Shown here piece by piece: positions 26,568 through 42,400 of a stretch of 64,000 nucleotides of DNA. The DNA comes from Alloacidobacterium dinghuense (GTDB taxonomy: Bacteria > Acidobacteriota > Terriglobia > Terriglobales > Acidobacteriaceae): assembly GCF_014274465.1 (NCBI RefSeq), contig NZ_CP060394.1:3782001-3846000 (forward strand). The letters are read 5' to 3'. Position 1 is the first letter of the stretch. Each line of letters starts with the position of its first letter. Under the pieces are notes generated by a model. The model did not search any database. It was not told where the DNA came from and saw nothing but the letters and a program-made list of their open reading frames with translations. The position numbers and the translations under genes are program-made.

Positions 26568-27668
26568 ATGGAAGAAACGAAACAGGCGCCGCGCTGGATT
26601 TCAGGCATCGAGCCGCCGCAAGAACTGCTCACGGCTACCGGCACACAGATTCTGGAGATTGAGTGCCGCGAACAGCCTGCTAAGCTTCACGATCTGATTC
26701 GCGCGTACGGGAACGATCCGGCGATCCGCAGCGAATTGAAGAAATTTCGGAGTCTCGCAGCGGGCAAAGGCCCGGTGCTCTTTATCGGGATGGGGGCATC
26801 GTTTTGTTCATCGATCAGCGGATCCATTTTTCTGCAATCGCATGGAAGACTGGCGTTTTCCGTCGATGCCGGCGAGTGGCTTCATTACGCATCCTCTATC
26901 TGGGCCGACGCAGCACTTTCTGTGTTGCTGACAACGTCCGGGGAGAGCGCGGAACTGGTGGAGCTTTTCAAGAGAGGTACCGGCAGGCCGTTGGGCTTGA
27001 TCTGCAACAACTCTGCAAGCACATGCTGGAATCTCGCGGAGAACCGACTGCCTATATTGGCTGGACCCGAATACGGCAATGCGACCAAGACATATACAAA
27101 CGCTACAGCCGCCGCCATCATTCTTGCATCGGAAATGGTTGGATGCGCGTGGGAGGAAGATGCGGAACGGGCAGCAGCAGTATTTGCGGCTCATCTCGAT
27201 CCTATCTTCGCCATCCGGAGCGAATTGGAGAAGTTCTGCAGGGGCGCTGCGAACATTGAGATCATTGGCCGGGGCGCGGCATACGGCGGCGCGATTTTGA
27301 GTGCGCTCTGTATCCGTGAAATGAGCGGCCAGAGGGCCGCAGCGCACACTGGAGCAGGTTTTAAGCACGGGCCGAATCTGGATGTTGATGCTTCACATGT
27401 GGCGATTATTTTCGCGCTAGGGCGGGCTGCGGACCTTGGGGTGAAGCTCGCGCAGGAGTGCAACCGACGCGGCGGAAAGGTCGTTCTTATTTCGAACGAT
27501 GAGCACAGGGCTTCAGATAAGCTGTTTCCTGTCAGGATCGAGTCGGTGCCCGAGCCGTGGGAGGGAATTACGTCACTTCTTGTGCCGCAGGCGCTTACGC
27601 TTGGCATTGTGGAACGAACAGGCTGCCGGTTGCCGCCTCGCTTTCAGTACGGAGTGATGGAGCAGTAG
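26568..27668 (+). CDS. SIS-domain (GlmS/AgaS-like) sugar isomerase or deaminase/deglycase
   Basis: The 366 residues make two SIS domains like the isomerase half of glucosamine-6-phosphate synthase, without the glutaminase half. The first has VLFIGMGASFCSSISGS and VLLTTSGESAELVEL; the second has EIIGRGAAYGGAILSALCIR and the FKHGPNLDVD motif near the sugar-phosphate site. Relatives are AgaS (galactosamine-6-P deaminase/isomerase) and FrlB-like deglycases, so an amino-sugar phosphate or Amadori substrate is likely. It is first in a rightward set with the sugar porter, ROK kinase and RidA. The N-terminus is MEETKQAPRW; no signal peptide, so it is cytoplasmic. Confidence 0.85.
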   Translation: MEETKQAPRWISGIEPPQELLTATGTQILEIECREQPAKLHDLIRAYGNDPAIRSELKKFRSLAAGKGPVLFIGMGASFCSSISGSIFLQSHGRLAFSVDAGEWLHYASSIWADAALSVLLTTSGESAELVELFKRGTGRPLGLICNNSASTCWNLAENRLPILAGPEYGNATKTYTNATAAAIILASEMVGCAWEEDAERAAAVFAAHLDPIFAIRSELEKFCRGAANIEIIGRGAAYGGAILSALCIREMSGQRAAAHTGAGFKHGPNLDVDASHVAIIFALGRAADLGVKLAQECNRRGGKVVLISNDEHRASDKLFPVRIESVPEPWEGITSLLVPQALTLGIVERTGCRLPPRFQYGVMEQ

Positions 27669-27691
27669 CTTTATTTTTGCGAGTTAAAAGG

Positions 27692-29071
27692 ATGCCCGTG
27701 TCTGATTCCATAGCCGCCTCACAGATACAAGTCAATCGCGGTTTTCTCTGGAGAGTTTCCTTCATCGCCGGACTGGGAGGCATTCTCTACGGGTATGACA
27801 TGGGGATCATTGCTGCCGCCTTGATTTTCGTGCGCCAGTCATTCGGCCTTTCAACGCAGATGCAGGAAATGGTCGTAAGCATTGTGCTTGTTGGCGCGAT
27901 GCTCGGCGCAATTATCGGCGGCAGCATCGCAGACCGTATCGGCAGGCGCTCAACGTTGCTTTGGGGTGGCGGCCTTTTTATCTTTGGCTCGGTTCTTGCT
28001 CCACTCTCACCGAATGTGCTCACGCTGATCGTTGCTCGCGCGATCCTGGGACTTGCCATCGGTTTCACCTCTGTGACGGCTCCGGTTTATGTTTCGGAGC
28101 TTGCTCCCCCGCAATCGCGCGGCGGGCTCATCAGCCTTTACCAATTCGCGCTTACTCTCGGGATTGCGCTTGCGGACCTGGTAGGTTACTGGCTCGCCGG
28201 AGAGCAGGCGTGGAGGCTGATGTTTGGCATTGGAGCCGTTCCCGCTGCCTTGTTTCTGTTACTGGTCCTTACTCTGCCGGAGAGCCCACGCTGGCTGTTT
28301 GCGCAAAACCGGGCTACAGAAGCGCAGGTTGTTCTGACAACGTACACGAACGAGGCCGGCTCGCGACTCTTGCTGGACGACATTCATACCGCACTCGAAG
28401 CAAAGATTGACCGGCGCTGGAGTGCGCTCTGGAGTCCCGCGGCGCGCGGAGCCCTTTTTATCGCCGTCGGATTTACCGTCCTGCAACAGGTCACAGGGAT
28501 CAATACCATCATCTACTATGGGCCACAAATCTTTGCGCTTGCCGGAATCACTTCCAACAAGAACGCGATCTTCGCAACTCTGATTGTCGCCGTAACGAAC
28601 ATGCTGGCTACTGTGATTGCGCTTTTCCTGGTGGATCGAATTGGGCGCAAGCCACTTTTATATATTGGGGTGAGCGGAATGACGGTGTCGCTCTTCATGC
28701 TGGCTATCGCTTTCCATCAGGTCGCCTTCGGATCGTCGCTTGGAATGATCGCTACCGTCTGCCTGGTGGTGTACATTGCCTGCTTCGCCTTCAGCATGGG
28801 GCCGATTGCCTGGATTCTTGTTTCCGAAGTGTTTCCATTGCAAATTCGCGGACGTGGAGTTGCGGCAGCAACACTGGGATCAGGCGCATCGAACTTTCTT
28901 GTGTCACTCACATTTCTCTCACTCATCAAAGCGGCGGGTAATGTCTTCACCTTTGTTATCTATGGGGGCTTCTGTATCGTTACTCTGCTTTTTGTGCGCT
29001 TTATCGTTCCGGAAACAAAGGGCCGCGAATTAGAGAGCATCAGCGCAAAGCCAAGTGTCGCAGTCAACTAG
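27692..29071 (+). CDS. MFS sugar porter family transporter
   Basis: The protein has 12 hydrophobic segments and full sugar-porter signatures: GGILYGYDMGIIAAAL, IADRIGRRSTLLWGG, PVYVSELAPPQSRGGLISL, PESPRWLF, LQQVTGINTIIYYGP, DRIGRKPLLYIG and PETKGREL. It should import a monosaccharide by proton symport. Two starts compete: ATG 27692 directly after AAAAGG, or GTG 27698, which lies five bases after AAAGGA and so has the better spacing. The difference is two residues. It begins 23 bp after the SIS gene and is followed by the ROK kinase, which suggests uptake followed by phosphorylation. Confidence 0.92.
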   Translation: MPVSDSIAASQIQVNRGFLWRVSFIAGLGGILYGYDMGIIAAALIFVRQSFGLSTQMQEMVVSIVLVGAMLGAIIGGSIADRIGRRSTLLWGGGLFIFGSVLAPLSPNVLTLIVARAILGLAIGFTSVTAPVYVSELAPPQSRGGLISLYQFALTLGIALADLVGYWLAGEQAWRLMFGIGAVPAALFLLLVLTLPESPRWLFAQNRATEAQVVLTTYTNEAGSRLLLDDIHTALEAKIDRRWSALWSPAARGALFIAVGFTVLQQVTGINTIIYYGPQIFALAGITSNKNAIFATLIVAVTNMLATVIALFLVDRIGRKPLLYIGVSGMTVSLFMLAIAFHQVAFGSSLGMIATVCLVVYIACFAFSMGPIAWILVSEVFPLQIRGRGVAAATLGSGASNFLVSLTFLSLIKAAGNVFTFVIYGGFCIVTLLFVRFIVPETKGRELESISAKPSVAVN

Positions 29072-29095
29072 AAACCAATATCAAGGGGCAATAAG

Positions 29096-30112
29096 CTGCT
29101 TACATCCGGCAATCAATACGTTCTCGGTATCGACATAGGGGGGACCAACCTTCGCCTCGCCCTGGCAGACATGGCGGGAGGAGCGATTGTTGCCAAATGG
29201 TCTTCTTCTACTGCGGGAAGCCGCGACGCGAATGTGATCATTGATCTGATTCGAAGTGGCGCAGAAGAGCTTTTGCGGCAAGCCGATGTGCCACGCAGCG
29301 CATTGAAAGCAGTTGCTGCCGGCGCACCCGGCGTCACCAATGTAGAAGCAGGCATCGTGGTGGCCACATCCTATCTGCTCGGTTGGCGCAATGTTCCGCT
29401 TCGCGATCTGCTCGAAGCTGCCTTTGAAGTTCCCGCAGCGGTGGACAATGATGTGAATCTGGCGGCCATTGGCGAATACTGGGCCGGCGCCGCAAAGGGT
29501 GTGCGTGATTTTGTTTTCCTGGCTGTGGGAACGGGCATCGGAGCGGGCATCATTCTCGACGGTAAGCCGTTTCGCGGAATGGACTGGTCGGCGGGTGAGA
29601 TTGGTTACATGCTTGTGCCGGGTGTATCGGACGGCGTTGCAGACACGAGCACGCCTGGGGCGCTCGAAGAATTGATTGGCGGTGAAGGCATTCGGGCAGA
29701 GTGGAGACGGAGATGGAGCAAAGGAGGCACATCGCTTTGCAAGGATCTGACGGCAACTGAGATATTTGACGGCGCAGTAAGCGGGGATGCGCTCGCGCGA
29801 TCCATTCTCGAACAGTCAGCTCGGCTCCTGGCCTATGCGATTTACAACATTTCACTGGTGTTGAACTGCTCTCTTTTTCTGTTGGGCGGAGGAGTTGGAA
29901 TGCATCGGGCACTTGGGGATGCGACTCGGCAGGAATTGGAAAAGTGGCGACGACACGGAAACATGCAGCTCATTCATAGCGGATTGGGAGTTGATGCACA
30001 GTTGATAGGCGCTGTGCGGTTGGCTCTCGATACTGCGAACGATCGAGGTGGTATTGCCGAAACGGCCGCCTCCAAAGTGGAACGCACATTTAACGCAACG
30101 AGGAGAAAATAG
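29096..30112 (+). CDS. ROK family sugar kinase, probable CTG start
   Basis: The conventional ATG at 29171 would remove the phosphate-binding loop. In the same frame upstream, after the TAG of the porter gene (29069), the protein reads YVLGIDIGGTNLRLALAD, the essential N-terminal ATP site of ROK kinases. No ATG, GTG or TTG exists in that stretch. CTG 29096 lies seven bases after AAGGGG and is the best start (338 aa). Further motifs are GAPGVTNVEAGIVV, DNDVNLAAIGEYW (catalytic Asp) and AVGTGIGAGIILDG. The Cys-rich zinc motif after GEIGY is missing, as in the ROK regulator at 25169-26389. The enzyme likely phosphorylates the imported (amino)sugar in the cytoplasm. Confidence 0.85.
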   Translation: MLTSGNQYVLGIDIGGTNLRLALADMAGGAIVAKWSSSTAGSRDANVIIDLIRSGAEELLRQADVPRSALKAVAAGAPGVTNVEAGIVVATSYLLGWRNVPLRDLLEAAFEVPAAVDNDVNLAAIGEYWAGAAKGVRDFVFLAVGTGIGAGIILDGKPFRGMDWSAGEIGYMLVPGVSDGVADTSTPGALEELIGGEGIRAEWRRRWSKGGTSLCKDLTATEIFDGAVSGDALARSILEQSARLLAYAIYNISLVLNCSLFLLGGGVGMHRALGDATRQELEKWRRHGNMQLIHSGLGVDAQLIGAVRLALDTANDRGGIAETAASKVERTFNATRRK

Positions 30113-30118
30113 CAAAAC

Positions 30119-30571
30119 ATGAAAAGAGCAAGTTCGCCGATATCAAGACCACTCATCTGGATGGCCGGGCTTTTGATCTTAGGTAGCTCAGGGAACGTTT
30201 TCGCACAACATCAAGCCGTTGACTTTACGCCGGGCATGCCCTTCAGTGAAGGATATATTGCCGGCAATACTCTGTATGTCGCGGGCCAACAGGGGCCTGA
30301 TTCGCATGGCAAGGTTACTGGTACTGACATCACACTTCAGACCACGAATGCTATCGCCGCGATCGAGAAAGTTGTCAAGAAGGCAGGCTTTCAGATGACG
30401 GACATCGTATCGGTAACTGTTTATGTTACAGATCTTAACGATGTCGAAAAAATGAATGAGGTCTATAAGAAGCTTATGCCGGATCCGAAACCGGCGCGTG
30501 CCACAGTACAGGTCGCGGGCTTGATCGGCGGAGCAAAGATAGAAATTTCGGCGATTGCGGTGAAACACTAG
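30119..30571 (+). CDS. RidA/YjgF family enamine deaminase with signal peptide
   Basis: RidA proteins hydrolyse reactive enamine/imine intermediates released by PLP enzymes and are normally cytoplasmic. This 150-residue copy has a signal sequence (LIWMAGLLILGSSGNVFA, residues 12-29) ahead of the complete domain. The substrate-binding Arg (PARATVQVAG, Arg127) and Glu (KIEISAIAVKH, Glu142) are present. It starts seven bases after the ROK kinase stop, with AGGAGA as ribosome site inside the end of that gene. A second exported RidA lies at 36096-36563 among exported PLP enzymes on the opposite strand, which gives a likely reason for exporting this activity. Confidence 0.9.
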   Translation: MKRASSPISRPLIWMAGLLILGSSGNVFAQHQAVDFTPGMPFSEGYIAGNTLYVAGQQGPDSHGKVTGTDITLQTTNAIAAIEKVVKKAGFQMTDIVSVTVYVTDLNDVEKMNEVYKKLMPDPKPARATVQVAGLIGGAKIEISAIAVKH

Positions 30572-30705
30572 CCGATCACAAAAACATTTGCGTACTGCAA
30601 CAGCATCCGAACGCGGGTCCCGTCCTTGAGAGACAGGACTCCGTTCTCAAAGCGTATTTAGCTGTCATGCCTAGTCAGGAAGAGCGAAGGCAAAGCAAGG
30701 AAGGC

Positions 30706-31683
30706 CTAATCGTACGGCACAAATCCGCGGGTGGTGGTCGGAAGCTTATATACCGATGTGGTTGCGGTTATGTAGAGCACCGAGTTGTTCGCACCGCCCC
30801 ATGAGAGGTTCGCCGGTTGCTCCGGGACTTCGATGGTTCCGAGATGCTCGCCTGTCGGACTCCATACCCAGATGCCGCGCGGTCCTACGACAAAGAGATT
30901 TCCTTTTTGGTCGACACGGATACCGTCGGGAACTCCGTCTTTTGTGCCGTCGTCTTCGCTGCCGAAGATGCGTCCATTTGAGATGGTTCCATCGGGATGA
31001 AAGTCGTACACGCGGATATTTTTCTTTTCTGAGTCATCGATATAGAGGTGCTTGCCGTCAGGAGAGAATGCTAATCCGTTCGGCTGCGTGAGGTCTTTTG
31101 TAAGCAGAGTGACTTTTCCAGTCGCGTCGAGACGATAGACTCCCTGAAATGGTGTTTCCTGTTTTTCACCCTTCTGCAAGTCGAGGGTTGGATCGGTGAA
31201 ATAGAGGGCTCCGTCCGGACCCAAAACTACGTCGTTTGGACTGTTGAATTTCTTTCCCTCAAAGCGATCTGCAAGCACGGTGTAACTCTTTCCATCTTGC
31301 GAGAGACGAATCACCGCTCGAAGGGCGCTTGCGGTGCTGATCAGCCTATGGTCGTGATCGTAGGTGCTGCCATCAGGATCGACCAGCGCGACCATTTCTT
31401 CGCGGTGCCCATCGGGAAAGACGCGAAAGATTTTGTTCAGCTCTTCGTCACTGACCCACACGAAATCGGATTTGTCCCATACCGGACCTTCGGTGAAACC
31501 GAAGCCAGTTGCCATTGTCTCCAGCCTGGCATCATGGCTCATTAGATCCCAGAAGGACGGAGTATTTGCCACAAGCCTAAACGGTCGCCGGGAAGGAGCG
31601 TTTTGTGCCGGGGCAGATAAGGGCCACACCACTAAGGGCAACACCATGCAAAGAATCAAGACTGTATTTGCAAACTTTTTCAT
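30706..31683 (-). CDS. exported SMP-30/gluconolactonase-like protein
   Basis: The 325-residue product has a Sec signal (MKKFANTVLILCMVLPLVV, cleavage near APA) and the six-bladed propeller of SMP-30/gluconolactonases, which open sugar lactones with a bound divalent metal. Typical strands are GFTEGPVWDKSDFVWVSDEE (metal-ligand Glu), KFNSPNDVVLGPDGALYFTD (Asn/Asp ligands) and QPNGLAFSPDGKHLYIDDS. Its ATG overlaps the stop of the preceding lactonase gene (ATGA), making it the last gene of a tightly packed leftward operon. It may act on the product of the FAD-dependent oxidase encoded two genes upstream. Confidence 0.88.
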   Translation of the reverse strand: MKKFANTVLILCMVLPLVVWPLSAPAQNAPSRRPFRLVANTPSFWDLMSHDARLETMATGFGFTEGPVWDKSDFVWVSDEELNKIFRVFPDGHREEMVALVDPDGSTYDHDHRLISTASALRAVIRLSQDGKSYTVLADRFEGKKFNSPNDVVLGPDGALYFTDPTLDLQKGEKQETPFQGVYRLDATGKVTLLTKDLTQPNGLAFSPDGKHLYIDDSEKKNIRVYDFHPDGTISNGRIFGSEDDGTKDGVPDGIRVDQKGNLFVVGPRGIWVWSPTGEHLGTIEVPEQPANLSWGGANNSVLYITATTSVYKLPTTTRGFVPYD

Positions 31684-32867
31684 ACTTCGTCCAAATCGTC
31701 TTCCGAGTCAACAACTTTAGTATGGTTTGGCGAACTCATTATGAGGGTTATGGGGGCGGTTACCTTCGCCGCCATGACCGCATTACCCAGCTTGCCACTG
31801 TCATGAACATAAATCGACAGCACTTCGTGCTGAATTCTATCGACGGCAAAGATGCGGCGGCCATCCGAGGACAGCCTCAAGGAATGCAGAGATCGCCCTT
31901 CAAGCCTCCATTGCTGCAAGGGGGACAGCTTTCCCGTCACAGGATTTATGGTCCAGGAGGAAATGCGGTCATCCGCAGATGTCGCGTAAAGAACGTCACT
32001 TGACGACGAAATAACAAGTTGCTGCGCTTCATGCGGAGTAGCTGCTGCATTCGTCAAGACTTGTTGTTCGTGTTTGACTTCGGCAGCATCCGCATTCCAG
32101 CGATAACAATCGATTGATTCATCGAGACTGTTTGATACGTAGAGAAAATTTCCGGAGGGATGTACGGCGATGTGTCCGGGACCCGACGCTGGACGGCAAG
32201 CGGTCTGAATCGTTCGTGTCATCCTGCCGCGCTGAAACGCGAACACATGGATGCGGTCACATCCTTCGTCTGTGGCGAGAAGATATTGTCCTGACGCATC
32301 GAACGCAACCGTGTGCGGGTGTGCGGATGCTTGGTAGTCGGGATGAGGACCGGCACCGACCTCTTTCAAAATCTGCGCGACCCGGCCCAGAGAACCGTCA
32401 GCGGCAATCGGCAATACGTTGAAGGCGCCGCCGCCGTGGATGGCCACGATGAAATAGTTGCCATCGGGCGAGACTTCAATGTGCCTTGGATTGATACCGG
32501 AGAGCGACAGAGGCTGGCGACTTAGCAAGTTCAGCTCGGCATTATTGGCGTCAAATTGATACGCCTCTACCGTGCCACGCGGCAGTCCTTCATATTCGTC
32601 GATCTCGTTTGCTACATAAAGAATTTGTCGGCTGGGATGGAGGGCCAGGGACACGGGCGAGCGGCTTGGTATGCTCTGTTTCCACTGCCATGCATCGCCG
32701 CGTACTGCGAAGGCGTGAACTTCCCCGGCTGCGGCAACGAAGGCGAACTCCTGAGCGGGTATCGCCTCTTTCGCGAATGGCATTGCTTTGTCCAGCGTGC
32801 CGAGAAGAGACGTATATCCGATGCCTTGTAGGAATTCACGACGATTCCATTGCTTGCTCTCGCTCAT
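31680..32867 (-). CDS. Tat-exported seven-bladed propeller lactonase (YbhE/6-phosphogluconolactonase-like)
   Basis: ATG 32867 is chosen because it lies four bases after the stop of the oxidase gene and starts a twin-arginine signal (NRREFLQGIG); the longer ORF would overlap the oxidase. The 395-residue protein has the repeated blade pattern of YbhE-type lactonases: RSPVSLALHPSRQILYVANE, NPRHIEVSPDGNYFIVAIHG, HTVAFDASGQYLLATDEGCD, GPGHIAVHPSGNFLYVSNSL. Cytoplasmic relatives hydrolyse 6-phosphogluconolactone. Export argues for an unphosphorylated sugar lactone here. Two lactonases of unrelated folds in one operon suggest different ring sizes or substrates. Confidence 0.87.
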   Translation of the reverse strand: MSESKQWNRREFLQGIGYTSLLGTLDKAMPFAKEAIPAQEFAFVAAAGEVHAFAVRGDAWQWKQSIPSRSPVSLALHPSRQILYVANEIDEYEGLPRGTVEAYQFDANNAELNLLSRQPLSLSGINPRHIEVSPDGNYFIVAIHGGGAFNVLPIAADGSLGRVAQILKEVGAGPHPDYQASAHPHTVAFDASGQYLLATDEGCDRIHVFAFQRGRMTRTIQTACRPASGPGHIAVHPSGNFLYVSNSLDESIDCYRWNADAAEVKHEQQVLTNAAATPHEAQQLVISSSSDVLYATSADDRISSWTINPVTGKLSPLQQWRLEGRSLHSLRLSSDGRRIFAVDRIQHEVLSIYVHDSGKLGNAVMAAKVTAPITLIMSSPNHTKVVDSEDDLDEV

Positions 32868-32871
32868 AGTG

Positions 32872-34398
32872 CTAGGTACGGACAGACATCGCGTGGTGGA
32901 AGACATTGTTCGGGTCATAACGTCGCTTCACACCTTGCAGGAACTCATATAATCCCTGATCGCCGTAGTAGAGCTGCGGCCAGAATGAGTATGCGAGCAT
33001 GTCGCTATCGGGATAGTTAATGTAACAGCCCTCGTAATGCTCCCCGGGATAGGGCGTAGATGCGTAGCGAGGGTCTACCTTGGAATTGGTGTACAAGTCA
33101 GCGTAGAAATCCTTCAGCCACTTGAGTCGGCCCGCGTCGTCTTCCGCATTTTGCCAATACGACTGAAATTGCAGCTTCATGGTCGACGAACGCTGCCAGA
33201 TTGAAGTTTCTTCTGCGAGGTTAGCGCGGTTGGTCGCTCCGCCATAGGAATCGATTGCCAGGAAAAATCCTCGCAGGTCCACTCCGGAGACTTCACGCGT
33301 CATGTGCTTGTACATGCATTTCGCTTCTTCCGGCGTAAAGTTCGTCTTCATGTAGCTTGATTTGTACTTGGCTCGGCCGCTCCCTTCGCCACCGCTGTCG
33401 CCAATGGTGGCGTCAAGCCATAACCGTCGGCTCATCGGGTAGAGCCCTGGGCATGCTTCGCCTGGGCCAGAGGCGCCGGGTATCGCTCTTTGTCCGGTAG
33501 GTGCAGGAGCCCCCGGCGTCGGCTTGCAGGGAGAGAAGAGATCAAGAAACTCGTTCACTACGCTCAGGTCTTTGCAGGTTCCGTCGGGATTACAGAACTG
33601 CAACGAGAGACCGAGTCGTTTTGTCGAGGCGTGAGAAATGTCGAGAATGGAGAAGAGGCCATAGGTATCAGGGTCCTTGCCACGCGATTCCCAGTAATGA
33701 CCGTAAGTGGTGAGGATGGTGACAAATCGTTCCTCGGTCATCGTCGTCCAATCAAACGACAGGCCTGAATGGACGACTTCCTGCGGAGCTGGAGGTAGCT
33801 TGTCGAAGAAGAAAGTGGTGACGACTCCGAAGTTGCCGCCACCTGCGCCGCGACATGCGCGGAAGAGATCAGGATCATGCTGTTTATCGACGTGACGCAA
33901 AACTACTTTGCCATTCGCATCGACTGTCAGAATGTCCACGGCCGATAACCAGTCCACTGTCAGTCCGTGCAGGCGCGAAAGCAGACCGTATCCCCCTCCG
34001 CTGATGTGGCCACCTGCGCCGACGGCGTAACAGGTCCCGGCGGGGATGGTTACCCCGTACCTCTTATAGAGGTCGAGATAGACGTCTCCTAATTGCCTTC
34101 CGGCGCTGATCTTGTACACCGTTCCATCTTTCGCGGAGTGCGGTTCCTGAAGGCTGAGATCGAGAATCGCACCGCCCGGATTATTCACGACGAAGTCTTC
34201 GTAGCAATGGCCGCCGCTGCGCACGGTTGGACGCAGCCCGGCGTTGACGATTCGCTGCAAGGCTTCAGCTACCTCCGCCGTGTTTTCGCACAGTTCGATA
34301 CGGCTGGCGAAGTCTGCTTCCGACGGAGGCAGGCGGAGGTTTCTGCTTCTTCTCAGTGTGGGGTAACGCGGGTCCTGATGGGTAACGGTAATTGCCAT
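32872..34398 (-). CDS. FAD-dependent carbohydrate oxidase of the berberine-bridge type, bicovalent flavin
   Basis: The 508 residues have the FAD_binding_4 fold and C-terminal BBE segment (YDPNNVFHHAMSVR). Two covalent flavin ligands can be read directly: His64 in VRSGGHCYEDF and Cys123 in IPAGTCYAVGAGG, followed by HISGGGYGLLSRLHG. Bicovalent members include chito- and gluco-oligosaccharide oxidases that turn reducing sugars into lactones with production of hydrogen peroxide. The gene lies between a SelA-like lyase (33 bp) and two lactonases (4-bp gap), matching an oxidase-lactonase sequence. No signal peptide is visible, unlike its neighbours, so it may act in the cytoplasm or leave by another route. 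Confidence 0.88.
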   Translation of the reverse strand: MAITVTHQDPRYPTLRRSRNLRLPPSEADFASRIELCENTAEVAEALQRIVNAGLRPTVRSGGHCYEDFVVNNPGGAILDLSLQEPHSAKDGTVYKISAGRQLGDVYLDLYKRYGVTIPAGTCYAVGAGGHISGGGYGLLSRLHGLTVDWLSAVDILTVDANGKVVLRHVDKQHDPDLFRACRGAGGGNFGVVTTFFFDKLPPAPQEVVHSGLSFDWTTMTEERFVTILTTYGHYWESRGKDPDTYGLFSILDISHASTKRLGLSLQFCNPDGTCKDLSVVNEFLDLFSPCKPTPGAPAPTGQRAIPGASGPGEACPGLYPMSRRLWLDATIGDSGGEGSGRAKYKSSYMKTNFTPEEAKCMYKHMTREVSGVDLRGFFLAIDSYGGATNRANLAEETSIWQRSSTMKLQFQSYWQNAEDDAGRLKWLKDFYADLYTNSKVDPRYASTPYPGEHYEGCYINYPDSDMLAYSFWPQLYYGDQGLYEFLQGVKRRYDPNNVFHHAMSVRT

Positions 34399-34431
34399 GT
34401 CGCTCCCGGAATCATCGCTGGTTCGTCGATA

Positions 34432-36045
34432 TTAGCTCCTTACCGCTGTCCAGGTAGCATCTCCATATTCGCCCATGTGAACCGTGCCACTCGCGTTGCT
34501 GCCGGAAACGACTCCGCGGAATGTCCAGAAAATGGAGTTACCGGGCACCTCCATGTCGCTCGTCAGCTCAATATGGTCGGCCTGCACGAGACCCTTCAGG
34601 TCTGCCTTATAGATTTCGCCTTGCTGGGTTCCGGTCACGCGGTCTCCATCTTGCTGCAGAGTGAATTTCTGTTCTCCGATGCCGCGAATATATTTGATCT
34701 CGACCGCCCAGTTGCCGGCGATCTGCACCGGAGCACCCTGCGGAATGACCGGATTTTCGTAGTGGCCCGGGTGCGTGAGTCCTTCGTAAATCGCATCAGC
34801 CACGATCTTTTCCTCACCGGCAGCCATCATGTAGGGCATGATCGTGAGAGAACTCTGCATCTTGTCGGGACGCCTGCCGGTGCCACTGTCGACAAGGATG
34901 CGGGGCGTGCCTTTGTCGAGGCGCTCGACCAGCTCTGTTCCAGTGATTTTGAGCTGGTTGGCGTCCCAATTGATACGGAGTTGCGGAGCGCGGTTGGAAA
35001 GATCTTCGGGCTGAATATATTCGGTCGTGACCGAAGGCAGGCCTTTTACGCGGCCTTCGATGTGCTGAAGCCACGATAGCCATTCACGCTGCTCGGCAGC
35101 GTGGTCACGCTTGTACCACTCGCGCACGGCTGCCAGCATGCCCATGCACTCTTCTTTACCGACTTTGAGGGCACGTCCCCAGTTGTGATGTGGCGCGGCA
35201 TTGAACCATGCAGCACGCACAATGTCCTTTTGACCGAGAAGAACTCCAGCCGCCTGCGGCCCGCGCATACACTTACCGCCGGAATAACCTACGAGCGTTG
35301 CGCCATGGCCGATATGGATGTTTGGAACGAGGGGCTCTTCGGCGGCAGCGTCTACGAAGACGGGAACGTTCTTTTCTTTCGCGATGGAGCAGATGTTCGG
35401 GATGGAGAGCGGGCCTTTTTCCGCGGCAGGGCTGGAGAGAATGTAGACCATTGCTGTGCGCTCGCAGAGTTTGGAGCGCAGCTCTTCTTCCGAATCCACC
35501 TCGACAATTTCGACGCCGCACATGCGCACGCCAAAATCATAGGGATTGCGGGAATGCCTGGGAATGATGACCTGATCGCGCTTCTTCGAATAAGGCATTG
35601 CCTGGGTCCGCTCGGGGTCTGCGCCCGCGATGCAGGCGACTGTTGCGACGGCAATTGCCGCTTCGCATCCCGTGGTTATGATCGCTGCATCCGCGCCCAT
35701 AAGCTTGGCTACCTCGCTGCCGACTGCGGGCATCAGCTCGTCAAGATGAACATAATAGTTCGACGCTTCGAGCATTGCCTGCTTTACCTGCGGCAGAGAG
35801 CGGGAACCGGTAATGATGGTGTACGTGCCGCGCGCGTTGATCAGCGGACGAACACCGATGCGCGTGAAAAGGTTGTCACCGTCTATTCCCTCAACGGCAG
35901 TGTGGATCGATCGCTGCGGCTTGGCGATCGTTGCAGCGTTTGCAACCAAGGGAGAAACAGCCGTAGCGGCAGATACGGCTGTAAGCATTCCCGACTGCTT
36001 CAGAACTTCTCGCCGGGACGGGCGCGCATTACGAAAGAGAGACAT
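34432..36045 (-). CDS. Tat-exported SelA-like PLP-dependent lyase with C-terminal beta domain
   Basis: The 537-residue protein starts with a twin-arginine signal (PSRREVLKQSG, cleavage near NAA). Residues about 55-425 are the SelA/DgaE-like fold-type I PLP domain: NARGTYTIITGSRSLPQVKQ, PVFVDAAAEEPL (Asp232 for the PLP ring) and the Schiff-base lysine in YSGGKCMRGPQAAG (Lys258). Relatives include D-glucosaminate-6-phosphate ammonia-lyase, which removes ammonia from 2-amino-aldonates. An extra domain of about 110 residues, rich in beta strands (FTLQQDGDRVTGTQQGEIY), follows and is missing from the paralogue at 36610-37890. Tat export fits a folded, cofactor-loaded enzyme. The RidA gene is 50 bp upstream. 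Confidence 0.85.
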   Translation of the reverse strand: MSLFRNARPSRREVLKQSGMLTAVSAATAVSPLVANAATIAKPQRSIHTAVEGIDGDNLFTRIGVRPLINARGTYTIITGSRSLPQVKQAMLEASNYYVHLDELMPAVGSEVAKLMGADAAIITTGCEAAIAVATVACIAGADPERTQAMPYSKKRDQVIIPRHSRNPYDFGVRMCGVEIVEVDSEEELRSKLCERTAMVYILSSPAAEKGPLSIPNICSIAKEKNVPVFVDAAAEEPLVPNIHIGHGATLVGYSGGKCMRGPQAAGVLLGQKDIVRAAWFNAAPHHNWGRALKVGKEECMGMLAAVREWYKRDHAAEQREWLSWLQHIEGRVKGLPSVTTEYIQPEDLSNRAPQLRINWDANQLKITGTELVERLDKGTPRILVDSGTGRRPDKMQSSLTIMPYMMAAGEEKIVADAIYEGLTHPGHYENPVIPQGAPVQIAGNWAVEIKYIRGIGEQKFTLQQDGDRVTGTQQGEIYKADLKGLVQADHIELTSDMEVPGNSIFWTFRGVVSGSNASGTVHMGEYGDATWTAVRS

Positions 36046-36095
36046 GGACAGACCTTATATTCTTCTTGAATTGTGTTGTTAAGCAGAACAACAGC

Positions 36096-36563
36096 TCAGA
36101 TGTACGCGATTAAATCAATTTCGACCAGTGAATTGCCGGGGATGCCGCCAGCCGGCGCAATCGTCGTGCGTACCGGAGGAACGCTTCCCCAACGCCCTTT
36201 GTACACGGTGTTCATTCTCTCCCAGTCCTTGATGTCGTTGAGATAGACATTCACTTTCAGAACCTTGTCCATGGACGAACCCGCCGATTGAAGCTTCTGC
36301 TCTAGCTCATCGAGCACATGCTTGGTGTGTTCTTCAATCGTTCCTTCGAAATGCGCTCCCACGCCTGCGAGGAAGAGAAGGTTGCCATATGAGACTGCTC
36401 CACTGAAGAGCGGGGTTTCTCCGGGCTTTGGCGGCGGATAGCTTTTCTTTTCAAGCTTCTCTGTTTTGGCTGAAGCGGTTTCGCTTAGAATTGCCGAGCT
36501 GCCCACAGCTGCGGCTGCTATCGCTGCATTCTTGAGAAGACCTCTTCTCGACTGCTCTTTCAT
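36096..36563 (-). CDS. Tat-exported RidA family enamine deaminase
   Basis: ATG 36563 has a good AAGGAGAG ribosome site and starts a twin-arginine signal (QSRRGLLKNAAIAAAAVG, cleavage near ASA). The 155-residue product keeps the RidA core: LFSGAVSYGNLLFLAGVGAH, NVYLNDIKDWERMNTVYK, the substrate Arg in PPVRTTIAPAG and the C-terminal Glu in LVEIDLIAYI. It lies between two exported SelA-like lyases in one operon (46 and 50 bp gaps), which strongly suggests it hydrolyses the enamine or imine they release. The sequence differs clearly from the Sec-exported RidA at 30119-30571. Confidence 0.9.
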   Translation of the reverse strand: MKEQSRRGLLKNAAIAAAAVGSSAILSETASAKTEKLEKKSYPPPKPGETPLFSGAVSYGNLLFLAGVGAHFEGTIEEHTKHVLDELEQKLQSAGSSMDKVLKVNVYLNDIKDWERMNTVYKGRWGSVPPVRTTIAPAGGIPGNSLVEIDLIAYI

Positions 36564-36609
36564 GCTTATTCTCTCCTTTGGGTTTGGAAGCAAATGCCCT
36601 CTGCTATAC

Positions 36610-37890
36610 CTAAGTCTTCATCAGAGCTGTTCTCAGACTACGACCGACGATCTCCGCCTCCCCTGGCTGCAACATCCAGGTAGAAATCACGATCGTATTC
36701 TCGTCGGATGGAAGACCGACTCGTGAGCTTGTGCCTGTTGCCGGATTCAATTCGATCGAGGGAGTCTGAGCGCGCAACTTTTCCTGGACCTGCTGGGGCG
36801 TAAGGCCCACAACCGACGGGTTATACGAGAGCAACAGATGCGGAACATGATTTGCGATGGGCGGCATGAAGACACGCGTCTTCATTGTGGGAACGTCCTT
36901 CACCGCATCTACGATGATGTTCGTCAGCCGCATGTACTCCGCCTGGTTCTTTTCGTCGGATTGTTCCAGGAGCCAATCCACGGCGGCAACCATGCCGACA
37001 ATCTGTTCTTTGGCAACTTTCATTCCGCGACCCACCGCGTCGGAATTGGGGTTGTTGTTTGCCACCGCGAGATCGATGAGGTGCTTCTTGCCAAGGAGCA
37101 ATCCGGCATTCTGCGGACCGCGAATTCCCTTGCCGCCGGAAAAGCACACCAGATCGAAGCCCATGCCTGTGTACTTCCATAGATTTTCGATCGGGGGCAT
37201 GTCGGCAGCAGCGTCATTGTGGCAGGGAACGCCGTGCTCATGCGCGACCCTCAACCAGGTTTCGCGGTCGATCTGTGCGCCATCCGGTCCAGCCTCCGCG
37301 GCATTGAAAAAGTTCGTCATTATAGTGTTTGGACTCAATGCTCGCTTGTAGTCTTCCAGCGTGACGACTTCCTTGATACGAGCACCGCACAGCAACATGG
37401 CGTGGTCGTACTCATAGCGGTGGGCCTTTTGCACGACAACTTCGTTTTTCATTTTGTCCACATTTTCCGGAATCTCCTGTGGACTCGCGCCATTCGCCGA
37501 TGCGATGCAAGCCGCAGTGGCGAGCGTCAACGCCGCCGATGCTCCTGAAGAAACAACAGCAGCCTCGCAGCGCAACTTCTTCGCCAGATACTCGCCTGCG
37601 GCGAGTTGCAGGTCTTTCAGCCGCACAGGATGCAGCGCAGCCTGCGCCACGGCTCGCTGTACTTGCGGAGGCATACACGCGGCGGTGAGGTACGTGTAGG
37701 TTCCAGCCGCGTTAATGATCTTTGCGACGCCTAACTTTGCATAGTAGTCGTCGGCGGAAGGAGCGTTTTCGGCAAACGATTCGGAAGGCCGTACAGCGAG
37801 AGGAGCGATGCCGAGTGCGGCAGCCGCGGTAGAAGACAAACTGAGAAATCTTCTGCGGGAAAGGCGACTGTCCGCACCCTGTTTAGGCAT
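36610..37890 (-). CDS. Tat-exported SelA-like PLP-dependent lyase (first gene of the operon)
   Basis: ATG 37890 is taken as start (426 aa); a GTG six codons earlier is possible but has no ribosome site. The signal SRRRFLSLSSTAAAALG is twin-arginine. The PLP domain has NAAGTYTYLTAACMPPQVQR, VPCHNDAAADMPP (Asp for the PLP ring) and the lysine in CFSGGKGIRGPQNAG (Lys254). Its C-terminus (PSIELNPATGTSSRVGLPSD) corresponds to the end of the SelA-like fold, without the extra beta domain of its paralogue. The two copies are divergent, which suggests different substrates or a hetero-oligomer. It is the first gene after the palindrome at 38037-38052, so it probably leads the operon. Confidence 0.85.
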   Translation of the reverse strand: MPKQGADSRLSRRRFLSLSSTAAAALGIAPLAVRPSESFAENAPSADDYYAKLGVAKIINAAGTYTYLTAACMPPQVQRAVAQAALHPVRLKDLQLAAGEYLAKKLRCEAAVVSSGASAALTLATAACIASANGASPQEIPENVDKMKNEVVVQKAHRYEYDHAMLLCGARIKEVVTLEDYKRALSPNTIMTNFFNAAEAGPDGAQIDRETWLRVAHEHGVPCHNDAAADMPPIENLWKYTGMGFDLVCFSGGKGIRGPQNAGLLLGKKHLIDLAVANNNPNSDAVGRGMKVAKEQIVGMVAAVDWLLEQSDEKNQAEYMRLTNIIVDAVKDVPTMKTRVFMPPIANHVPHLLLSYNPSVVGLTPQQVQEKLRAQTPSIELNPATGTSSRVGLPSDENTIVISTWMLQPGEAEIVGRSLRTALMKT

Positions 37891-38036
37891 TTCCTTGATC
37901 CACCTCACGCAAAGCGATGTTCAGGAGACGAAGATCCGTCTCAATGGCAAGCAGTAGAAAAACATCAGATCTTTCAGTGCAACCATTCCACGCGAAGCTC
38001 AGCATGCTGTCATCGGTCACACGCCCCTTCACAAAT

Positions 38037-38052
38037 TAGGACAAATGCCCTA
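38037..38052. promoter_or_regulatory. putative operator of the PLP lyase/oxidase/lactonase operon
   Basis: TAGGACAAATGCCCTA is an imperfect palindrome in the 172-bp gap between rraA-like gene and the first SelA-like gene, about 150 bp upstream of its start. A 15-base core differs by one base from AGGACAAATGTCCTA at 51518-51532, upstream of the third TonB receptor gene. NarL/LuxR-type response regulators bind short inverted repeats of this size, and one is encoded at 38873-39496. No −35/−10 pair could be assigned with confidence. Confidence 0.5.
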
Positions 38053-38062
38053 CGGCGTCGCG

Positions 38063-38845
38063 CTAGAGGCGGCCGAATTGCTTTACGGCCTCTTCAATCG
38101 AGTGAAACTTTTCGATGAAAGGATACATCGAGTGCTCGCTGTCATCCAGATGCTGCGCCAACACCAGGATTTCAGGAGCCTTTTCACGCGGCACGACTAC
38201 GACGCCATCCTGATCGGCCACAATGATGTCCTGCGGTTCCACCTTCACTCCATCACAGACGACAGGAACATTCATTCCACCGAAACGGTAGTGGCTTACG
38301 GATGTGGATGGAACCGGACCTGTTGAGTACACGGGAAACCCGATCTTCTTGAGCTGCGGAAGGTCACGAACTCCGCCATCAATGACAGCGCCGGTAAAGC
38401 CTCGTGAAAACATGGCGGTTCCCATGAGACCGCCCATGCCAGCTATGTCGGCGCCATCCTCAACGGTCATCACATAGACGGATCCCGGACCGCCTGTATC
38501 GATTGCCTTCAGCATGCCCGCCAAGGCATTTGGGTCGTGGTTTTCCTCTTTCACCAGTTTGACCGTGAGAGCAGTGCCCGCGAATTTAGCGGGGAAGATG
38601 GATTGCATGCGATGCGACATATAGCGCTTTTCGTGAAGCAGCTGCTCAATCGCATCCGAGACGGACGCGGCTTCAACGTGGCGATATGCATCGATCATCA
38701 GTGCAGGGTCGGCGGCATAGTCGGCTGCGGTCTTTGGAGTGTCGGCAAGAACGATGTGCGTAACGGTAAGGGTAGCGGCCAAGGCAATAACAGCAGAAGC
38801 TGCCACGATGGTGCATCGACGCAAGAAAAACACAGATGCCTTCAA
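38063..38845 (-). CDS. exported RraA-like protein (4-hydroxy-4-methyl-2-oxoglutarate aldolase family)
   Basis: The 260-residue protein carries an N-terminal signal or anchor (CTIVAASAVIALAATLTVTH, then VLADTP). The RraA-like fold follows: VYVMTVEDGADIAGMGGLMG and GFTGAVIDGGVRDLPQLKK, the latter with the Arg-Asp pair needed for metal-dependent pyruvate aldolases of this family, then GVKVEPQDIIVADQDGVVVV. Family members either cleave 4-hydroxy-2-keto acids to pyruvate or, in RraA proper, inhibit RNase E. Export rules out the second role here. Its place next to the lyase operon suggests it cleaves a 2-keto-3-deoxy acid formed by it. Confidence 0.85.
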   Translation of the reverse strand: MKASVFFLRRCTIVAASAVIALAATLTVTHIVLADTPKTAADYAADPALMIDAYRHVEAASVSDAIEQLLHEKRYMSHRMQSIFPAKFAGTALTVKLVKEENHDPNALAGMLKAIDTGGPGSVYVMTVEDGADIAGMGGLMGTAMFSRGFTGAVIDGGVRDLPQLKKIGFPVYSTGPVPSTSVSHYRFGGMNVPVVCDGVKVEPQDIIVADQDGVVVVPREKAPEILVLAQHLDDSEHSMYPFIEKFHSIEEAVKQFGRL

Positions 38846-38872: not shown

Positions 38873-39496
38873 TCAATCCAGATGGATGAGACCTCGCTGG
38901 AGAGCGAAGATCGTTGCCTGCGTGCGGTCGCGAGCTCCCATTTTATCGAGCACTGAAGATACGTGAATCCGCACCGTCTTCTCCGCGATGTGGAGCTCGT
39001 CGGCAATCTCACGATTGGAGCGGCCTTGAGCGATGCAGGCAAGCACTTCCGACTCGCGAGGGGTCAGGTCGACGGATGGAATCCGCTCGGCCAGCCGGTC
39101 GAGAGCTATGCGAGGAAGGTAGCGAAGGCCACGATCGACACTTTGGATCGCGTTGACCAGTTCTTCGCCGCTCGCATCCTTCGTGAGATATGCCATGGCA
39201 CCAGAGCGAACGGCGCGGTAAATATCTTCGCTTCCCTGATAATTTGAGAGGACGACGATGCGCGCCTTGGGAAACTCCTGCCGCAATTGCGTGATCAGCT
39301 CAAAGCCACTCATACGCGGCAGACGCAAGTCGACCACGGCCACATCGGGCTGGAGGGAGCGATACATCACGATTCCCTCTTCGCCATCGGATGCTTCGCC
39401 TACGACTCGGATCTGCGAGTGACCTGACAATACCGAGTGCAACGCCATTCGCGCCAGATAATGATCTTCAACCAGAAGGACACGAATCTCTTTCAT
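38873..39496 (-). CDS. NarL/FixJ-type response regulator
   Basis: The 207 residues form a complete receiver (Asp56 in VAVVDLRLP; Asp11 acidic pocket in VEDH; Lys106 in YLTKDAS) and a LuxR-type helix-turn-helix (LTPRESEVLACIAQGRSNRE, VRIHVSSVLDKMGARDRTQA). Its ATG overlaps the stop of the sensor kinase gene (ATGA), so the two form a cognate pair. It lies next to the rraA-like gene on the same strand. The palindromes at 38037-38052 and 51518-51532 are candidate binding sites, which would make it the activator of the catabolic operon and the third TonB receptor. Confidence 0.93.
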   Translation of the reverse strand: MKEIRVLLVEDHYLARMALHSVLSGHSQIRVVGEASDGEEGIVMYRSLQPDVAVVDLRLPRMSGFELITQLRQEFPKARIVVLSNYQGSEDIYRAVRSGAMAYLTKDASGEELVNAIQSVDRGLRYLPRIALDRLAERIPSVDLTPRESEVLACIAQGRSNREIADELHIAEKTVRIHVSSVLDKMGARDRTQATIFALQRGLIHLD

Positions 39497-42400
39497 ATGC
39501 CGATCCAGGGAACAATGTACTGATGTTGCTGCCCGCTGACCTTTTGCAGGGCATTAAAGGAGACGTTCACGGATACCTCCGTTCCTTCATCATGTGAGCT
39601 TTGCACGCGCAATACGCCGCCCACTTTTCTGGCACGCTCTTCCATGACGGGGATTCCGAAATGTCCCACTTTGGAGGAGTCGCCTCGAAACCCTTTGCCG
39701 TCGTCCCTGACGGTCAGATTGAGCGAATCCGGCTCATAGCGCAGATGAACGGCGATGTGGGAAGGAGAAGCATGCCGCATGGCGTTGGAAACAGCCTCCT
39801 GTCCGATACAGACAAGATGGTGCACATATGCCGGCGCGAGCGGCACCTCATCCCCTTCCATGCGAAACGTGATGACCAGCGAGTCACCCGGCTCCTGCGC
39901 ATTCAAGGTGCGTGACAGGGCATGGGAAAGGATGTTGGTCATGTCTCCTGTGTCGCGCAGGTCCCAGATGATGCGCCGGGCCTCAGCCTGGCAATGAGAG
40001 ACCATACCACGTGCGAGCTCGCAGGATTTCGCTGCAGCCGTGTCCACCAGCGCGCCATCGCGGAAGATTTTCGAAGTCGCTTCAAGCTGCCACGATATGG
40101 CGGCAAAGCCAGCCATCAAGGTATCGTGACACTCTCGCGCAATTCGATTCCGCTCCTCGATGACGACACCGATCTGTCCTTTGACTAACTTCACGCGCTG
40201 TCTAAAGAACTGGACCGCCAGCGCTGCAGCTAACAACAAGACTGCGAGATAGAAATACCAGGTCTGATAGAAATAACCCTGCTGCTTTACGGTTGCGGAA
40301 ACAACCGAAGGCCCCCACGGTTCACCACTATTGCGCGCCTGTACTTCGAATGTGTACTTGCCTGGTGGAAGCTTACGATAACGCGCCATGCGCGCCTGTG
40401 TCGTCGTCCAATCCGGATCGTAGCCGCTGAGGCGATAGCGAAACTCAATCTGAGAGGGATTGGAGAGATGAATCGCGTTGAACAGGAAGGTTACATCAGA
40501 CTGGCCCGGCGCGATTTCAACACTAGATCCATTGAGGACATGATCCCGATTTAAGTCGTCGCTAAAGGTCCATCCCAGGGTGGGAGTGATGGGGCCTGAA
40601 GCAGCCGGGAGATTGGCTTCACCCGTTGTGCGCGAGAAGCCTTTGGTCGTGGCAAACCAGAGCGTGCCATCGGGAGCGCGAGCTGAACCCGGCTGAGGAA
40701 ATTCATTGCATTCACTGGATTGCATGCCGTCTTCGCGTCCAAAGACAACCGGCGCCAGATATCGATCTTCACCGTCAGCGACGGCATGTAGAGCAGCAAC
40801 CGTAACCCGCACAATGCCACGCGAGGTTCCCAGCCACAGGCGACCATGCGCGTCTTCTACCGCTGTGCGAACGGGCAGCATCGGGAGGCCGCTCCTTGCG
40901 CTCAATGGCTCTGCGCGATCATGGACGAGAAGAGCAAGACCTCCGGCTCTTGTGCCGATCCACGTATAGCCAAGACTGTCGCGAATCAGCGAAATCACAT
41001 GCGAATGCGGCAGATCGGTAATGGGAGTAGAGTGTCCTTCGCGTACGCGAAAGAGGCCGGTATTCGTGCCCACCAGCATCGAGCCGTCAACATCTTCCAG
41101 CATGCAGGTAATCAGCTTGGCATCGAGAAACAGAGACCGCTGTCCAGTGAGTTCGCCACTCGCAAAATAGAGCAGACCGAGATAGGTTCCGATCCACAAA
41201 CCACCGTGGCGGTCTACCAGGATTGAGCTGACGGCGTTGCCTGGGGACTCTGTGCCGAGAAGATAGTGCCGGAAGGAGGTTCCGTCATAGCGGTAGATGC
41301 CGTTGAACCAGGTTCCAATCCACAGTTGTCCCCGCTGGTTCTCAGCGAACGCACGAATATGCGTGGAGAGAGGCATGTCGGACGGCGTCATTACCGTGAG
41401 TTTTCCGTTGTGGACGCGATAGAGTCCCTTGTCCCAGGTGCCCAGCCACAGATCGCCATGGCTGTCCGACAAAACTGTCGATGCGTAGGCTTCGGGAAAG
41501 CCGTCCGGTTCGCTATATGGAGCAAATGCCGCTCTGCGCCAGCGGCTCAGGCCGCCGGCGAACATGCCGATCCAGAGGTTGTGCTCATTGTCGATGAAGA
41601 GGGAGCGGATGGTGTCATCCGGCAGCCCATCCTGCGACGACCACGACGAGACACCATCACTCCCGATTCGGCGAATGCCACTGTGACGGGTTCCAACCCA
41701 GAGATTGCCCTGGGCATCGCCCAGCATCACGGTAACGGGAGTGGGTACGCGCGCTGCAACGACTTCTTCGTACGCTGCTCCTTGCTGGCGTGGCTTTAAC
41801 TGAACGACACTGTTCGCCGTGCCAACCCAGAGGCGATGCAGCGGATCGCGATAAATGGCGACCGGGTTGCCCAGAGTTCTATCGCGCAACGTATAGCGCT
41901 CCGGCTTTCCACCGCGCACCACGTGGAAGAGCCCGTTCGACGTGACAAAGAACATGCCGCCGCGATTATCTTCGGCGAAAGGCGCGACGATATCTCCGGA
42001 AATCATGCCAGTCTCGCCGAAGCTTTCCAACTGGCCATCATGAAACCGTTCAATACCATTTTGCGTTGCAATCCAGAGCACGCCGGCCGAATCCTGATAC
42101 AGCCTTCGAACTCGCTCATTCATACGACCAGCAAGCTCACTGATGTTGTTGGGAGTACCGGAGCCGTTGTATTGCAACACGCCTCGTCCGTCGGTCCCGA
42201 TCCAGAGATCACCACTCTTTCCGATCAGGACCGCATTCACGGCCTCCCCGTCGATATCTCCGGGGATGGGAAGACTTTGGAAACGTAGGCCGTCGAATGT
42301 GGTCAGGCCGGCAGCGGTAGCAAGAAGCAAAGAACCGTCCGGCTCCTGCGCGATCATGCGGACGTTGTTTTCCGGCAGGCCGTCTTCTACCTGCCATCCC

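Follow-up and report, generated by a model that had tools for sequence, protein, structure and literature searches.

The pyrroloquinoline quinone (PQQ) glucose dehydrogenase oxidizes an aldose directly at C1 in the periplasm, before the sugar is taken up. A 64,000-nucleotide stretch of DNA from the soil acidobacterium Alloacidobacterium dinghuense (positions 3,782,001 to 3,846,000 of contig NZ_CP060394.1; here called the window, whose own numbering is used for coordinates) carries a one-strand gene array that we read, with a probability of about two in three, as encoding an oxidative route that breaks down N-acetylated amino sugars outside the cytoplasm and without phosphorylation; not only the oxidation at C1 but also deacetylation and deamination would take place there.

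The closest known pathway is the Ong pathway of Pseudoalteromonas (PMC9537276), although a preliminary description of the window had pointed to glucosaminate catabolism, whose phosphorylated route is indeed akin. In the Ong pathway, N-acetylglucosaminate (GlcNAc1A) is deacetylated to glucosaminate (GlcN1A), which a pyridoxal phosphate (PLP) enzyme deaminates to 2-keto-3-deoxygluconate (KDG); a RidA-family protein, OngD, is needed for growth on GlcNAc1A, and its role is called unknown by the authors (PMC9537276; PMC12017989). The locus described here shares with it the intermediates, the PLP-dependent deamination and a RidA-family gene. However, GlcNAc1A catabolism in Ong is cytoplasmic, whereas the enzymes here have Tat- or Sec-like signals (Tat, twin-arginine translocation); OngB is a subtype V D-aminoacylase-like protein and OngC a fold-type III PLP enzyme, whereas the lyases here match SelA/DgaE; GlcNAc1A derives there from oxidized chito-oligosaccharides, whereas here the start would be the free sugar via an oxidase; and KDG is phosphorylated in Ong, by KdgK. 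The SelA-like PLP lyase DgaE (DGL, structure 7LC0) has the same PLP lysine as the lyases here and a KDG-type product, but acts on a 6-phosphate, and the proteins here carry export signals. In DGL, His-163 protonates C3, and the H163A variant is fully active yet releases the enamine, from which its authors proposed that the histidine guards against a toxic intermediate (PMC9529869); published docking places Arg-301, Arg-332 and Arg-346 at the phosphate and Arg-226 near the substrate carboxylate. Finally, the N-acetyl-D-hexosamine oxidase of Ralstonia solanacearum (NagOx or HexNAcO; structure 7ZZK) forms a lactone and prefers N-acetylglucosamine (GlcNAc) and N-acetylgalactosamine (GalNAc), with K_M values of 0.26 mM (GlcNAc) and 0.32 mM (GalNAc), compared with 4.5 mM (glucosamine) and 216 mM (glucose); its biological function was unclear to its authors, who found its closest homologues in Acidobacteriales and Burkholderiales (PMC9299179; PMC9850908).

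The computation shows which genes are present and conserved, which proteins bear export signals, the kinship of the oxidase with a characterized HexNAc oxidase and the changes in active sites; from these we infer the reactions, their order, the substrates of the amidohydrolase and of the lyases, and the location of the oxidase. NagOx would oxidize C1 of GlcNAc (or GalNAc) to a lactone, whose ring would be opened by a Tat lactonase (and SMP-30) to give N-acetylglucosaminate; an exported amidohydrolase would then remove acetate, leaving glucosaminate, from which Tat-exported SelA-like PLP enzymes (SelA1 and SelA2) would eliminate water and release an enamine/imine, to be hydrolyzed by a co-exported RidA to KDG and ammonia. 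KDG could then enter the cell through a major facilitator superfamily (MFS) carrier or be split into pyruvate and glyceraldehyde by the RraA-like aldolase, while a TonB-type receptor would feed the pathway and a propeller-type two-component system would control it. Lactone hydrolysis and lyase chemistry on an unphosphorylated 2-amino-aldonate, both proposed in the preliminary description, find support here, but that description lacked the deacetylation step and overlooked the amidohydrolase gene. A deacetylase is required because the PLP enzyme needs a free amine, and the likely substrate, from the homology of the oxidase to a HexNAc oxidase, is GlcNAc or GalNAc.

The window oxidase matches 7ZZK with an E-value of 5e-200 over residues 1-507, and 289 of the 506 aligned residues are identical (57%) over the full length. 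The residues that bind flavin adenine dinucleotide (FAD) bicovalently, His64 and Cys123, are kept, as are the loop cysteines, which makes the protein, by homology, a candidate member of EC 1.1.3.29. A comparison of 16 positions, comprising both FAD-linking residues, the pair of loop cysteines and the active-site residues cited in PMC9850908, found 13 identical to 7ZZK, with Ser122, Leu251 and Gln381 replaced by Thr, Ile and Ala, respectively. Both proteins align from residue 1, so neither has a leader. The oxidase is therefore a strong candidate for acting on GlcNAc and GalNAc, a highly likely assignment that bears out the oxidation of an amino sugar proposed earlier while amending its substrate. 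The Ralstonia enzyme had no known pathway, and no Ralstonia match was found in a plasmid collection.

The genes occur together in relatives well beyond chance. Among 150 genomes of the family (E-value thresholds chosen by us: 1e-60 for the oxidase, 1e-100 for SelA2, 1e-25 for RidA and 1e-100 for the amidohydrolase), the oxidase and the amidohydrolase were each found in 16 and both together in 14 (1.7 expected, p = 7.8e-16), or in 13 when the genome under study was left out (p = 6.4e-15); by genus, the amidohydrolase was present in 9/9 oxidase genera of this sample (p = 5e-11). SelA2 was found in 14 genomes, 12 of them with the oxidase, and RidA in 21, 13 of them with the oxidase; SelA3, used as a control for relatedness (22/150), accompanied the oxidase in 7 (p = 0.003 by genome, 0.06 by genus). 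Clustering was assessed with a pattern scan of genome_contigs (84,980 species by its own description) with a SelA2 alignment, which gave 208 pattern matches, 60 of them encoding relatives: 31 loci from Acidobacteriaceae, 14 from Alphaproteobacteria, 4 from Bacteroidota and 11 from other acidobacteria, as grouped by record titles. The pattern step limits the reach of this sample, in which many loci are cut by contig ends and some come from near relatives. SelA2 has a RidA gene 5 kb or less away in 42/60 loci (27/31 in Acidobacteriaceae, 13/14 in Alphaproteobacteria, 1/4 in Bacteroidota and 1/11 in other acidobacteria), and no more than 200 bp away on the same strand in 38; the amidohydrolase is within 5 kb in 33 (17/31, 12/14, 4/4 and 0/11, in the same order), RraA in 27, SelA1 in 24 and the oxidase in 13, all of these last in Acidobacteriaceae. 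Homologues of the receptor (some weak), of the sensor kinase and of the response regulator each appear in the retrieved stretch of 20 loci, and of the 14 loci that carry NagOx, 12 have a lactonase match directly beside it. On plasmid pACIX902 of Granulicella tundricola, a single strand encodes the MFS carrier, histidine kinase, response regulator, receptor, RraA, SelA1, RidA, SelA2, amidohydrolase, lactonase and oxidase, in this order and without SMP-30, and each of these proteins is best matched by its counterpart in the window (1168 bits for the receptor, a weak 84 bits for the lactonase). The expectation that the gene set would recur in other Acidobacteriota was thus borne out, and the genes proved to be anything but rare neighbors.

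Other enzymes sometimes appear to replace the oxidase. A sugar-type oxidoreductase accompanies SelA2 in 14/31 Acidobacteriaceae, 11/14 alphaproteobacterial, 1/4 Bacteroidota and 0/11 other acidobacterial loci; the alphaproteobacterial loci have a GMC oxidoreductase in 10/14 and a PQQ dehydrogenase in 4/14, together with genes of the sugar-acid-dehydratase type within the clusters, and in Adhaeribacter the genes for RidA, the amidohydrolase, a PQQ-cytochrome dehydrogenase and SelA2 are consecutive. PQQ dehydrogenases make no direct use of oxygen. The A. dinghuense genome itself has a second cluster (L030, G000:C1:3545001-3564000) with SelA3, a cupin, cytochrome c, SMP-30, a triple RidA, DUF4380 and a PQQ dehydrogenase, and among 18 fetched loci of SelA3 relatives 15 contain a PQQ dehydrogenase and 17 a RidA. 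A fourth SelA-like protein (L031, G000:C1:3921001-3940000) is encoded beside GH39, GH92 and pectate-lyase-like genes.

Both window lyases match 7LC0 (E = 8e-34 for SelA2 and 3e-22 for SelA1). In an alignment to DGL of 85 proteins (58 SelA2 and 27 SelA1, short ones, including two of the 60 SelA2 rows, being left out), the PLP lysine, printed as 217 in the DGL paper and 213 in the chain numbering used here, which fits the histidine and arginine numbers of that paper, is kept in 58/58 and 27/27. In contrast with DgaE, His-163 is found in none of the 85 and His-162 in one, and the phosphate arginines are retained in 31 (Arg-301), 1 (Arg-332) and 0 (Arg-346); the last position is Tyr or Trp in 83, and all three are absent from both window proteins. 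We read these losses as consistent with a substrate that carries no phosphate and with an enamine leaving the enzyme, and the latter would account for the RidA encoded alongside. Filing the proteins as DgaE was rejected on the family cut-offs and the active-site residues, the likeness in chemistry being kept; they are probably hexosaminate ammonia-lyases. SelA2 (58/58, support 0.88) and SelA1 with its relatives (0.96) form separate clades. Alphaproteobacteria have SelA2 without SelA1 (0/14), while SelA1 occurs without a detected SelA2 in two genomes (G039 and G142, the latter 59% complete), suggesting overlapping roles; the split may perhaps correspond to gluco and galacto epimers. A C-terminal extension of about 95 residues (34432-34720, minus strand) is conserved in SelA2, has no Pfam match and is absent from SelA1. 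As for RidA, a PF01042 score of 68 bits and an Arg and a Glu invariant in 42/42 homologues (a weak row, L100, left out), whose roles in RidA we take to be the usual ones, place it in the Rid family, the score for TIGR00004 being 60.6 bits for a cut-off of 106.25. A role as helper of the lyases is likely, and the dedicated exported RidA of the preliminary description finds support.

The amidohydrolase scores 400 bits with NF006689 ('amidohydrolase/deacetylase family metallohydrolase'; cut-off 371) and is the only full-length match to the EF_0837 model in its own genome, a second match spanning 57 positions. Of 43 homologues found, the 42 with 380 residues or more were compared in an alignment, one short row being left out; the HxH, Lys, His and Asp positions are invariant in 42/42, and a further His is present in 17/42. 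Acetyl-(R)-mandelate, which is a carboxylate acylated at the alpha position, is hydrolyzed by enzymes of the cog3964 type, and in Enterococcus a SelA-like gene presumably adjoins EF_0837; the open-licence literature searched yielded no paper on the substrates of cog3964 enzymes. A deacetylase role in the pathway is rather probable. The proposed roles of the lactonases are quite likely; in L032-L034, loci from the same genus, no SMP-30 was seen next to NagOx. The RraA-like protein resembles the 4-hydroxy-2-oxoacid aldolase 3NOJ (E = 8e-19) and belongs to PF03737 with an Arg-Asp motif, which we take to be catalytic in such aldolases, present in 26/26 homologues that reach 200 residues (two fragments were set aside); its predicted action as a KDG aldolase is nevertheless one of the weakest points of the pathway, at slightly less than even odds.

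Export signals were scored with a regular expression for the twin-arginine motif and a hydropathy rule, not with SignalP. Tat-like signals were found in 59/60 SelA2, 27/27 SelA1, 42/43 RidA and 21/23 lactonase open reading frames (ORFs), and Sec or Tat signals in 42/43 amidohydrolase and 27/28 RraA ORFs, the remaining RraA being truncated; the SelA-like proteins, RidA and the amidohydrolase keep theirs across three phyla. It had been stated that every enzyme but the oxidase carries a signal: in the window, SelA1, SelA2, RraA and the amidohydrolase do score as Tat or Sec and the oxidase does not, but the lactonase is one of the two that fall just short of the rule, although its twin-arginine motif (NRREFL) is plain by eye. 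All enzymes other than the oxidase are very probably exported. Among the open-licence papers listed in searches, judged by titles and abstract openings and with subscription journals mostly outside their reach, none deals with an exported RidA beside such lyases or with a periplasmic route like this one. For the leaderless oxidase, the adjoining lactonase makes carriage in a complex a reasonable guess, no more, and it is possibly taken through Tat in this way. One NagOx relative (L050, 1844-3868), in which Ser replaces the histidyl FAD residue, bears a Tat signal of its own, and its NagOx-specific loop contains an inserted cytochrome c domain; these two features suggest that at least this enzyme is outside. 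A cytochrome-fused oxidase as a general solution to export was rejected, as only L050 shows the fusion and lacks that histidine; in an order-level sample (a match in 53 of 298 genomes, four candidates scored per genome) the inserted cytochrome domain is skipped by the matches listed. A possible lactonase-oxidase fusion in another genome (G326) was checked and is not a fusion.

Several observations, given in this and the following paragraph, weigh against the extracytoplasmic pathway. None of the 15 NagOx N-termini scored (one a fragment), nor one further truncated piece, has a signal; NagOx is missing from the retrieved stretch of 17/31 Acidobacteriaceae loci, and neither NagOx nor a GMC or PQQ dehydrogenase was found in the stretches retrieved for the 11 other acidobacterial loci; and a Pfam scan of 40 window proteins turned up neither a chitinase nor a hexosaminidase. 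In the oxidase itself, Leu251, the N-acetyl pocket residue, is replaced by Ile and Gln381 by Ala, and the position of Leu251 varies among 18 relatives (Ile in 7, Leu in 3, Gly, Phe and Asn in 2 each, Met and Ala in 1 each, Arg in 0). The missing signal is what a split pathway would predict, the alternative that survives best although it is unlikely: NagOx would be cytoplasmic or released otherwise, and the exported enzymes would process oxidized chito-oligosaccharide ends (GlcNAc1A) that other organisms or lytic polysaccharide monooxygenases generate outside the cell. Oxidative breakdown of chitin is known to yield GlcNAc1A (PMC9537276), and RidA, SelA2 and the amidohydrolase occur without NagOx in the retrieved stretch in 8/31 Acidobacteriaceae and in 12/18 alphaproteobacterial and Bacteroidota loci. 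However, the lactonases that adjoin NagOx are mostly Tat-like, the relative with a cytochrome c domain brings its own Tat signal, the distribution of NagOx over genomes follows that of the amidohydrolase, and cytoplasmic oxidases that form peroxide are described as rare (PMC9299179). An exported oxidase keeps a modest advantage, although its location is among the weakest points.

Another of the weakest points is the functional mixture of the SelA-like family. The window proteins score far under the DgaE cut-offs (SelA1 and SelA2 157 and 166 bits with TIGR01437, cut-off 385; 118 and 149 bits with NF047797, cut-off 600), the binding-site evidence is not one-sided, Arg-301 being kept in those 31 proteins, and just 12/85 retain Arg-226, which the window proteins replace by Gln and Lys; the substrate must therefore be bound differently in further respects as well. 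The histidines are also missing from 8T7J, a structure of unknown function. In the 11 other acidobacterial loci (several on short contigs) no aligned SelA-like protein has His-163, yet RidA is nearby in 1 and the amidohydrolase in 0; loss of the histidine does not, then, require a neighboring RidA, and a strict rule to that effect was rejected. SelA2 relatives (33% identity) are also found in phosphoenolpyruvate (PEP) mutase (phosphonate) clusters of rhizobial plasmids (L178, L179), which shows that the family is functionally mixed. Likewise, the amidohydrolase could not be taken as an OngB orthologue: its best matches are 8wzy, 2ogj, 8je0 and 2ics, and its resemblance to D-aminoacylase is confined to about 65 residues (E = 7e-5), short of the close D-aminoacylase homology, with a Cys/His/His metal site, that marks OngB-type deacetylases. 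The relatives in non-sugar clusters and the mostly missing Arg-226 would suit a core of exported SelA-like enzymes, RidA and amidohydrolase whose substrates come from cell-wall turnover (N-acyl-D-amino acids or different 2-amino acids), with the oxidase as a separate neighbor; this core is also more widespread than the oxidase, and the nearest characterized relatives of the known GlcNAc1A deacetylase are D-aminoacylases (PMC12017989). We consider it quite improbable, because NagOx and the amidohydrolase coincide in 14/150 genomes, sugar-type oxidoreductases accompany SelA2 in the three groups named above, and genes of the sugar-acid-dehydratase type lie in the alphaproteobacterial clusters. 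Making hydrogen peroxide against competitors was suggested as a role for the Ralstonia enzyme (PMC9299179); that the oxidase serves mainly this end here, with downstream genes only clearing the product, is very improbable for an array in which a dedicated receptor and carrier accompany a deacetylase, a pair of lyases and RidA, as would be expected of a catabolic route, and whose oxidase is replaced by PQQ dehydrogenases in some relatives.

The extracytoplasmic pathway can also be stated in its fullest form, as a complete plasmid-borne route that turns free N-acetylhexosamine into acetate, ammonia and either a 2-keto-3-deoxy acid or pyruvate plus glyceraldehyde, in which Tat-exported PLP lyases without a built-in proton donor would pass the enamine to the co-exported RidA, NagOx would be carried folded with the Tat lactonase, and the oxidizing module would be exchanged for PQQ or GMC dehydrogenases in other lineages; in this form it is tentative, the odds being clearly against all parts holding at once.

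All genes named in the preliminary description are present on the minus strand in the order claimed, and its gaps (46, 50, 33 and 4 bp, then a 4-bp overlap) were reproduced with ATG starts at 36563 for RidA and 32867 for the lactonase. The leftward operon that it placed at 30119-38845 is real, but the first bases (30119-30571) belong to a plus-strand gene for a Sec-type RidA outside it, and the operon is the downstream part of a same-strand array that continues upstream of RraA as far as the receptor (Table 1). The MFS carrier has TIGR00893 as its best match (217 bits, under the cut-off of 395). Genes for a DUF3299 protein, an ATP-binding cassette (ABC) ATPase and an FtsX/MacB-type permease (43998-46402, minus strand) lie between the amidohydrolase and this carrier, and DUF3299 adjoins the amidohydrolase also in loci L053, L070, L109 and L041. 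In the divergent plus-strand set the SIS protein has GlmS/NagB-II as its best models, and the set perhaps represents a cytoplasmic amino-sugar route. A phage-type integrase is encoded at 58888-60126 (minus strand), near the right end of the window.

Table 1. Genes of the minus-strand array (51315 to 30706), in array order, and the divergent neighbors, with window coordinates
Feature	Coordinates	Strand	Match	Candidate role
TonB-dependent/Oar-type outer-membrane receptor	47980-51315	-	Pfam OMP_b-brl_4, 685 bits	importer of amino sugar or chito-oligosaccharide
cog3964-type amidohydrolase, Sec-exported	46428-47780	-	NCBIfam NF006689	N-acetylhexosaminate deacetylase
DUF3299 protein	45938-46402	-	Pfam PF11736	
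ABC ATPase	45254-45937	-	Pfam	
FtsX/MacB-type permease	43998-45260	-	Pfam	
MFS transporter, D-galactonate-transporter (ACS) type	42657-43967	-	TIGR00893	importer of KDG or sugar acid
Propeller-type sensor kinase of two-component system	39493-42549	-	Pfam	
Response regulator of two-component system	38873-39496	-	recognized from sequence	
RraA-family protein, Sec-exported	38063-38845	-	PF03737, 133 bits	class II pyruvate aldolase for KDG
SelA1, Tat-type SelA/DgaE-like PLP enzyme	36610-37908	-	TIGR01437, 7LC0	2-amino-aldonate ammonia-lyase
RidA, Tat-type	36096-36593	-	PF01042, 68 bits	enamine/imine hydrolase
SelA2, Tat-type SelA/DgaE-like PLP enzyme with extra C-terminal domain	34432-36045	-	7LC0	
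NagOx, bicovalent-FAD (FAD/BBE) N-acetylhexosamine oxidase, without signal peptide	32872-34398	-	7ZZK	
YbhE/PGL lactonase, Tat-type	31680-32918	-	PF10282, 175 bits	possible Tat carrier for oxidase
SMP-30/gluconolactonase, Sec-exported	30706-31683	-	PF08450, 169 bits	
Divergent set: SIS, sugar-porter MFS, ROK kinase, Sec-type RidA	26568-30571	+		

If this reading is true, it would give a biological role to the N-acetylhexosamine oxidase, which its discoverers left without a pathway, and would mean that RidA chemistry and deamination by PLP enzymes both occur at an unexpected site, outside the cytoplasm. The presence or absence of the proton-donor histidine of DGL may help to explain why RidA partners some lyases. 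The cassette is present in a named strain, G. tundricola MP5ACTX9, and acidobacteria that carry it are predicted to be able to draw nitrogen and carbon from amino sugars without kinases.

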